A stretch of DNA of 33,823 bases. Source: Candidatus Intestinimonas pullistercoris. GTDB lineage: Bacteria; Bacillota; Clostridia; Oscillospirales; Oscillospiraceae. Shown piece after piece: positions 1 to 1,004 of this stretch. The notes beneath the pieces were generated by a model, which saw nothing but the letters and a program-made list of their open reading frames with translations, made no database searches and was not told the DNA's origin. The position numbers and the translations under genes are program-made. Position 1 is the stretch's first letter. Each line of letters starts with the position of its first letter. The stretch is taken from the NCBI GenBank assembly GCA_019119795.1, contig DWWJ01000072.1, positions 1 to 33,823 on the forward strand. Reading direction: 5' to 3'.

Positions 1-674
1 GCGGCAGAGGCGGCGGCGTCGCTGCCCATCTCCGCAGACGAGCGGAGGAAGTAGAGTAGGAAGGGGAGCGGGGAGAGACCGTAGAGCTTGATCCCCTGCT
101 TCTCGTACTCCTTTACCCCTTTCTCGATGGCCTTCCGGCCATAGCTCAGGCGGCTCTTGACGGTGTTTTCCGACACCCCCAGCAGCTCCGCGATTTCCTT
201 GACGCTCATTTCCGCGTTGTAATAGGACATGACAGCCACCCGCTGGGTCTCCGGCAGCTTGTCGATCAGCTCCCGGATCATGCGCCGGGTCTCCTCGCTG
301 TCCAGCGCCGCTTCCGGCATGGATTGCTGGTCCAGTTCCTCCAAATTATCCAGAATGGAGTTGCCCTCCTCGTCTTCGACAAACTGGAGATCCTTGGGGT
401 TGCGCATGCGTTCATTGATACACCGCCGGGTGGCGATGGTATTGGCCCAGCTGATAAAGCGCTCCGGTTCCCGCAGGGTCCCCAGAGTCTCATAGATTTT
501 TATGAGGACCTCCTGGGCCATGTCCTCCGCATCCTCCGAGTGCTTCATGATCCTCCGGCACTGAAATAGTACGTTTTTGTACGCCGTCTGCAGCAGCTGG
601 TTCATGGCCTCGCTGTCCCCAGTCTGCGCCTTTTGAACCAGCTCCGCAATCTGTATTTTGTCCATTTTTTTCAT
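1..674 (-). CDS. RNA polymerase sigma-70 family (ECF-like) factor; 3' end lies off the left window edge
   Basis: Minus strand translates as MKKMDKIQIAELVQKAQTGDSEAMNQLLQTAYKNVLFQCRRIMKHSEDAEDMAQEVLIKIYETLG...LDKLPETQRVAVMSYYNAEMSVKEIAELLGVSENTVKSRLSYGRKAIEKG, with typical sigma region 2 and region 4 motifs. AGGAGAGAGAGC precedes the ATG. Absent from the ORF track because it is open at the edge. Confidence 0.9.
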   Translation of the reverse strand, partial: MKKMDKIQIAELVQKAQTGDSEAMNQLLQTAYKNVLFQCRRIMKHSEDAEDMAQEVLIKIYETLGTLREPERFISWANTIATRRCINERMRNPKDLQFVEDEEGNSILDNLEELDQQSMPEAALDSEETRRMIRELIDKLPETQRVAVMSYYNAEMSVKEIAELLGVSENTVKSRLSYGRKAIEKGVKEYEKQGIKLYGLSPLPFLLYFLRSSAEMGSDAAASA

Positions 675-834
675 GCTCTCTCTCCTCTACTTTTTTGATA
701 ACAGTAGGGTTATCCGGGATGATCTGCATCGCTTCACGGAAAAAGCACTCCTGAATCCATCTAAAAAAGGTCATGTCATAAAATCCCTCCTCTTTGGTCT
801 TCACCGACTTAGACACAAAAACTGAGGGCGAGGT

Positions 835-1004
835 TTTAGGGCTTGTTTGAAAATTGGCGATGTGCCCAGCGGCGAGGGATTTTGGGCCACTGGCAAGCAA
901 TTTTGACGCAGGAATCCTGACGGATTGCAAGGAAAAATTAAGCCGCCCAGGGGCCAAAAGACCCGCCGGTTGGGTATGTCGACATTTTTCAAGCAAGTCC
1001 TAAA
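835..1004. repeat. MITE-like / palindromic insertion element: 170-bp near-palindrome with imperfect terminal inverted repeats
   Basis: TTTAGGGCTTGTTTGAAAAttGgCGA...TCGacATttTTCAAGCAAGTCCTAAA. The arms pair in register about a centre at 919.5, with AATCC-tgac-GGATT at the apex. 39 of the outer 54 positions match. Confidence 0.75.

Follow-up and report, generated by a model that had tools for sequence, protein, structure and literature searches.

A gene-less mobile element of the Oscillospirales with a conserved polar hairpin core beneath differing terminal repeats

A palindromic MITE upstream of a sigma factor gene

The window, i.e. the whole stretch of DNA that was analysed, comprises 33,823 nucleotides of contig DWWJ01000072.1 from Candidatus Intestinimonas pullistercoris. 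An inverted-repeat palindrome at 835-1004, centred at 919.5, was confirmed by a position-by-position count of appositions, and is situated some 160 bp upstream of a gene for an ECF-type sigma factor, as a preliminary description of this DNA had stated. The sigma factor gene is on the minus strand, and relative to it the element's plus strand is antisense. A serine recombinase gene with Resolvase and Recombinase domains (1533-2444) is located directly beside a tRNA-Leu(gag) gene (2548-2634), the pair occupying 1533-2634 of the window; a recombinase next to a tRNA gene is an arrangement seen at the edges of integrated elements.

Ungapped, 53 of the 85 appositions across 835-1004 are Watson-Crick pairs, compared to a mean of 23.7 over all 170-bp windows of the contig and a best value elsewhere of 44, making this the best palindrome of its length on the contig. 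Recounting the outer 36 positions in the 919.5 register gave exactly the eight mismatches that had been described, six of which are G.T appositions on the plus strand at precisely the positions listed before (841, 846, 861, 862, 864 and 869), and the remaining two are T.T at 854 and G.A at 857. The predicted RNA fold of the plus strand has a free energy of -90.8 kcal/mol (z-score -8.7) and that of the minus strand -65.9 kcal/mol (z-score -5.4). At the apex of the plus-strand fold, the fold and the covariation of the stem together define a hairpin tip at 914-925, ATCC-TGAC-GGAT, with a UNNC-type tetraloop closed by a C-G pair.

Genome searches recovered multiple copies with conserved ends, both in the source genome and in its relatives. 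The source genome contains eight full-length copies, 83-93% identical to the query, and approximately seven partial ones, and a congener, the uncultured Intestinimonas sp. BRZ_F__bin67 (G008), yielded 51 scored matches among 204 first-look candidates. Furthermore, a search with the exact-end pattern found elements in, at least, Flavonifractor plautii ATCC 29863, Flavonifractor sp. An10, Neglectibacter, Acutalibacter and other Oscillospirales. The termini TAGGGCTTGTTTGAA and TTCAAACAAGCCCTA are present on more than 150 copies, mostly 163-168 bp long, and because the copies end in this way the limits of the element in the window are set at 837-1002. The preliminary description had placed the boundaries at 835 and 1004, which is 2 bp too far out on either side according to both the aligned copies and an empty site, but the element is otherwise as it was described; the TT at 835-836 and the AA at 1003-1004 are flanking sequence, i.e. 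a TTTAAA target.

The element is thus a miniature inverted-repeat transposable element (MITE) whose 166 bp, with the duplicated TA at either end counted in, are well within the usual limit of roughly 600 bp for such elements, and its plus strand is the one that folds best; its extent (837-1002) is supported by the aligned copies, the empty site and the covariance model match given below. The first copy of the target dinucleotide is at 837-838, in agreement with the empty site of another copy (L004) and with dimers that share one TA, and the second is at 1001-1002, as indicated by the aligned copies and the empty site. The left terminal inverted repeat (TIR), TAGGGCTTGTTTGAAAA, spans 837-853 on the plus strand and is identical to ends found on IS5-family (DUF4096/DDE) insertion sequences (ISs). 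The right TIR spans 986-1002 on the minus strand and reads TTTTCAAGCAAGTCCTA on the plus strand; its outer 15 positions contain two mismatches to the consensus. No gene is carried within the 166 bp, in keeping with the earlier account, since the sole listed ORF to overlap the element (490-996, minus strand) has no Pfam match.

The bases that flank the copies give a target site of YTAR. One copy in the source genome, L004, has an orthologous empty site in G008 that contains a single TA: the empty site reads CTCCCTTTAGACT and the filled site CCCTT-TAGGGC...CCCTA-GACT. Head-to-tail tandem dimers of the MITE share one TA and are common in G008 (L029, L062, L073, L093 and L099), and where copies are nested, taking the inner copy out of the sequence leaves an outer element of 166 bp that has a single TA. 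Insertion is at TA, which is duplicated in the process. A search of 10 congeners did not uncover the flanks that would reveal an empty site for the window copy itself. The dispersed copies with conserved ends and the single-TA empty allele show that the original reading of a non-autonomous MITE was correct, and its identity as a mobile element is secure. At L167 3051-3400 and L109 366-715, MITE variants of 186 bp have each inserted at a TA within a 166-bp member of the same superfamily.

Partner insertion sequences

ISs of 850-851 bp with TAGGGCTTGTTTGAA or TAGGCCTTGTTTGAA ends are present in three genomes (G001, G002 and G018, the last being Flavonifractor An10), and an IS with matching ends in G008 is cut by a contig end. 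These partner ISs encode DUF4096 (PF13340) and DDE_Tnp_1 (PF01609) domains, either in a single frame of 267 aa (L201) or in two frames of 128 and 153 aa, and their copies have TA at both flanks. We take them to be IS427-like members of the IS5 family, a group in which the transposase is often split over two overlapping frames and a 2-bp TA target is duplicated. MITE copies with GGCC-type ends also exist and match GGCC-type ISs. Since autonomous ISs carry the same ends, and the ends are all that MITE and IS have in common, the MITE would be mobilised in trans by the transposase of the partner IS. The source genome contains only a weak DUF4096 fragment, so present-day mobility there is doubtful.

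A second helper class is represented by a 1025-bp DUF4096 IS in the genome B59_59, which has perfect TAGAGTCTGTTTTAAAAC ends, i.e. the ends of core-bearing elements in the genome G343. The ends of the superfamily therefore match at least two transposases, and probably many; DUF4096 ISs with matching ends were also sought in 15 genomes, mostly with other TIR types, and most had none or had ones with non-matching ends. Two TIR types are matched to an IS and most others have no such match in the genomes covered; a switch of helper may be presumed for most types. An apparent autonomous element of 2.8 kb in B59_59 (G012:C13) turned out to consist of unrelated genes and nested MITEs.

Duplication of TA is also the habit of IS630/Tc1-mariner transposases, as in the RUP elements discussed below, and for this reason IS630-type transposases were tried first. 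DDE_3 ORFs are indeed present in some of these genomes, but the DDE_3 loci lack the ends of the element, whereas the DUF4096 ISs have exactly those ends, and mobilisation by a transposase of this kind is highly improbable.

A conserved core beneath differing ends

A covariance model (R1) was built only from subfamilies of the Neglectibacter/Acutalibacter/B59_59 type, with the subfamily of the window left out, and matches the window copy at exactly 837-1002 with a score of 64.2 bits on the plus strand and 33.0 bits on the minus strand. Matches to R1 were found in 63 of the 394 genomes of the order and in 35 of its 168 genera. The matched relatives are approximately 150-168 bp long and have strongly different ends, amounting to about ten TIR types, for example TAGAGTCTGTTTTAAA, TAGGGTGTATCTGAGAA, TAGGCGCTATCTGAAA, TAGGGAACCTCTGAATAAA, TAGAACCTGTCTTCATAA, TATTGCTCCACCAATTAAA and TAAGGGATTGCCGCATAA. 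Beneath these ends they have a polar core in common, CAAGGC-stem-CGCAG-stem-C(UNNC)G-stem-CAAGG-stem-AACGCAG, which in the window occupies 892-952 of the plus strand and reads CAAGC..CGCAG-stem-CTGACG-stem-CAAGG.. there.

A model rich in base pairs can match any long hairpin, so a profile based on sequence alone and stripped of the ends was tested on 80 elements, together with 4000 decoys that had been shuffled or palindromised. The profile found 79 of the 80 elements, all on the same strand, and 64 of them score above the best of the 4000 decoys, which counters the suggestion that the model merely detects any hairpin of this length. In the window, the sequence-only core model (R2) matches 892-952 on the plus strand with 31.2-31.3 bits. 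Mean identity across 14 TIR types is 0.67 for the core and 0.50 for the ends, with random 18-mers at their best offset reaching 0.38. Beyond the Oscillospirales relatives, a genome from a different family of the phylum (G732) also has the core alone, within an element that bears TAGGGGCTATCAAG-type ends. Far from being filler, the interior forms a long, conserved hairpin, polar in its apical core, that is common to the superfamily in Oscillospirales relatives and in at least this one further genome. An asymmetric internal loop occurs twice in opposite senses, as CGCAG/CAAGG near the apex and as CAAGG/ACGCAG further out (alignment A4, columns 8-10/52-57 and 18-21/42-45). One core-bearing element, L346 (G051:C15), has a tmRNA gene nearby.

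The usual definition of a MITE rests on the match between its ends and those of a parent transposon, with the interior assumed to be passive. The window element is like the MITEs of IS5-family (IS427 group) ISs in being short and non-coding, with TIRs identical to those of a co-resident IS, and in its TA duplication, high copy number, dimers and nested copies. In an ordinary MITE, however, the ends are the conserved part, and here the interior is conserved and the ends change, which is the opposite of the usual definition, and the element therefore resembles a satellite that switches helper.

Small repeats with related properties have been reported in other bacteria. RUP and BOX of Streptococcus pneumoniae are base-paired, occur as clustered or nested copies and are proposed to be moved by ISs with similar TIRs, namely IS630 for RUP and ISSpn2 for BOX (PMC3049150), and in these respects they are like the window element. 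Each of them is tied to one TIR and helper (PMC3049150), whereas the family described here has many TIR types and would depend on a different transposase family; unlike RUP, it does not share its ends with an IS630-type transposon, the DDE_3 loci of the present genomes lacking them. A review of MITEs describes them by their ends and points to the processing of their transcripts by RNase III and to possible riboswitch- or terminator-like roles (PMC10969869). The Correia/NEMIS element of Neisseria is also a palindromic MITE and its transcript hairpin can be cleaved by RNase III (PMC10969869); no sequence relation between it and the window element was found in Rfam or in phage and plasmid records, and the review text consulted does not describe a conserved polar apical core for Correia/NEMIS. 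ERIC, YPAL and RPE are, like the window element, palindromic, able to form RNA hairpins and both intergenic and intragenic (PMC2229807), but a mobilising IS, a target duplication and TIR classes have been identified for the element reported here. Neither the element nor its relatives score above the gathering threshold of any Rfam family, and neither a published description of the element nor one of a conserved core that moves between end types was found in searches of open-licence papers.

Strand polarity, covariation and their interpretation

Covariation was tested on MAFFT alignments of copies (A2, A4 and A5), in which kinship is only partly removed and in which pairing at the DNA level would covary too. 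A one-letter error in the loop of one A4 row (L142) has no bearing on any conclusion. Families A and B were handled separately or anchored on the apex; a global MAFFT alignment misplaces the interior. The arms co-vary: when the alignment is made independently of the fold, both sides have changed in 29 of the 60 predicted pairs, none of 500 shuffles comes up to the observed value on any of the five measures, and scores are far lower when the partners are slid. Among elements with many different ends, the apical seven-pair stem has a covariation of 0.627 compared to 0.151 after shuffling (0 of 500 shuffles), the absolute percentage paired being biased upward by the stem having been located partly via its pairing. 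All seven pairs of the lower stem covary.

The plus strand folds better in 156 of 159 copies and in 26 of 27 subfamilies (90% identity), and when the strand is fixed by sequence alone, RNA of the plus strand has the greater stability in 24 of 26 groups. Appositions of G.U (G.T) outnumber those of A.C in 20 groups versus 6 (p=0.009), albeit with counts that are not fully independent owing to shared ancestry; the groups with more A.C than G.T include G051, G119 and L305. The subfamilies are likewise not independent, because G.U positions are partly inherited. In young, near-identical copies the new changes that break Watson-Crick pairs produce G.U 15 times and A.C 13 times, indicating that the mutation supply is unbiased, and mutation bias was accordingly rejected as the source of the polarity. 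On the internal branches of the family trees the ratio is 20 to 8 (p=0.036), with the terminal branches intermediate at 61 to 46. Insertion orientation relative to genes is 33:30 within ORFs and 16:19 in tandem intergenic regions, and relative to GC skew it is 87:66 (p=0.11), i.e. there is no orientation bias with respect to genes or replication. The polarity is therefore a property of the element, not of the sites where it inserts, and no host-level use of one orientation is visible.

Selection for a folded RNA and transition-type decay of a perfect palindrome had both been put forward for the G.T positions. The co-varying arms, together with the balance in young copies and the excess of G.U on internal branches and across groups, favour selection over simple decay, but fall short of proving RNA to be the strand under selection. 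It is likely, though unproven, that a single-stranded fold of the plus strand is selected. The interpretation that we prefer, with a probability of roughly 60%, is that of a gene-less MITE moved in trans by IS5-family transposases, with a conserved polar hairpin core, ends that have changed to fit different transposases, and a plus-strand fold that is most probably formed by RNA. The IS5-family (IS427-like, DUF4096 plus DDE) transposase would recognise only the ends of about 17 bp. The plus strand would fold as a single strand, most probably RNA, and either a host factor would recognise the structure or the fold would otherwise aid the spread or tolerance of the element. RNA is preferred to single-stranded DNA because wobble polarity, a conserved loop and an asymmetric internal loop are typical of RNA and there is no replication-strand bias; this is a preference and not a demonstration, and we infer the recognising factor and the benefit in the same manner.

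Every hallmark of a MITE is present, and it could be argued that the element is an ordinary palindrome moved by IS5-family transposases, with an interior that is alike by common descent and a G.U polarity that stems from a founder effect followed by decay. The balance of new G.U and A.C changes (15:13) and the random genomic orientation would suit such an origin. However, the core has outlasted the transposase-binding ends across 14 TIR types, which is the reverse of what descent alone would lead one to expect, compensatory change is extensive, and 20 of 26 groups retain more G.U than A.C despite turnover of the arms, so that an ordinary MITE seems unlikely. Another possibility is a polar hairpin that acts as single-stranded DNA or as a cruciform arm during replication or transposition, bound by a host DNA protein or a transposase complex and with its G.T appositions serving as DNA wobbles. 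In DNA, G.T is a milder mismatch than A.C, and palindromes readily extrude; the specific loop and asymmetric internal loop of the conserved hairpin would suit DNA too, and a random orientation relative to genes requires no transcription. Against this, no replication-strand bias is apparent (87:66, p=0.11), the TA duplication speaks against single-strand transposition of the IS200/IS605 type, and IS5-family DDE transposition is not known to proceed via a single-stranded hairpin; a DNA-level role is distinctly unlikely.

A role selected by the host, e.g. as an RNase III site or terminator in neighbouring transcripts such as that of the ECF sigma factor gene, has a precedent in the Correia elements, bacterial MITE hairpins that are known RNase III substrates (PMC10969869). 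Many of the intergenic copies are near gene ends (median 24 bp), and the window copy is itself upstream of the sigma factor gene. The insertion sites, however, are not common to related genomes, orientation relative to genes is random, and the sigma factor transcript would contain the weaker-folding minus strand, all of which renders a regulatory origin improbable.

The preferred reading of a trans-mobilised MITE with a selected plus-strand fold can be extended to a structured nucleic-acid parasite that is untied to any one transposon. Its polar core of approximately 60-100 nt (CGCAG-stem-CUNNCG-stem-CAAGG) would be functional in its own right, either as RNA of the plus strand or as single-stranded DNA, and would have repeatedly acquired new terminal repeats, moving between IS transposases across genera of the Oscillospirales; we advance this extension tentatively, at a little under even odds. 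If the core is a functional RNA or single-stranded DNA hairpin, a mobile element without genes would be subject to a new kind of selection. Direct testing is possible, since the copies, the empty sites and the helper ISs have been defined and a covariance model has been built. Furthermore, comparing counts of G.U and A.C among new mutations with those among long-lived changes provides a general test for palindromic repeats that are maintained as a single-stranded fold.

A search of phage and plasmid records gave one weak partial match in phage and none in plasmids. In the viral catalogue IMG/VR, the core motif is located near the ends of three contigs (L347, L348 and L349), two of which end no further than about 20 bases from it, as would happen if assemblies were broken by the repeat. 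A class of elements of approximately 113 bp in B59_59 weakly matches the full-length model with 33-38 bits (L209 1203-1315, L167 3427-3539, L169 1434-1546 and L109 255-367), and the ends of those in L209 and L167 resemble TAGAGTCTGTTTGAAAAC or TAGAGTCTGTTTTAAAA.
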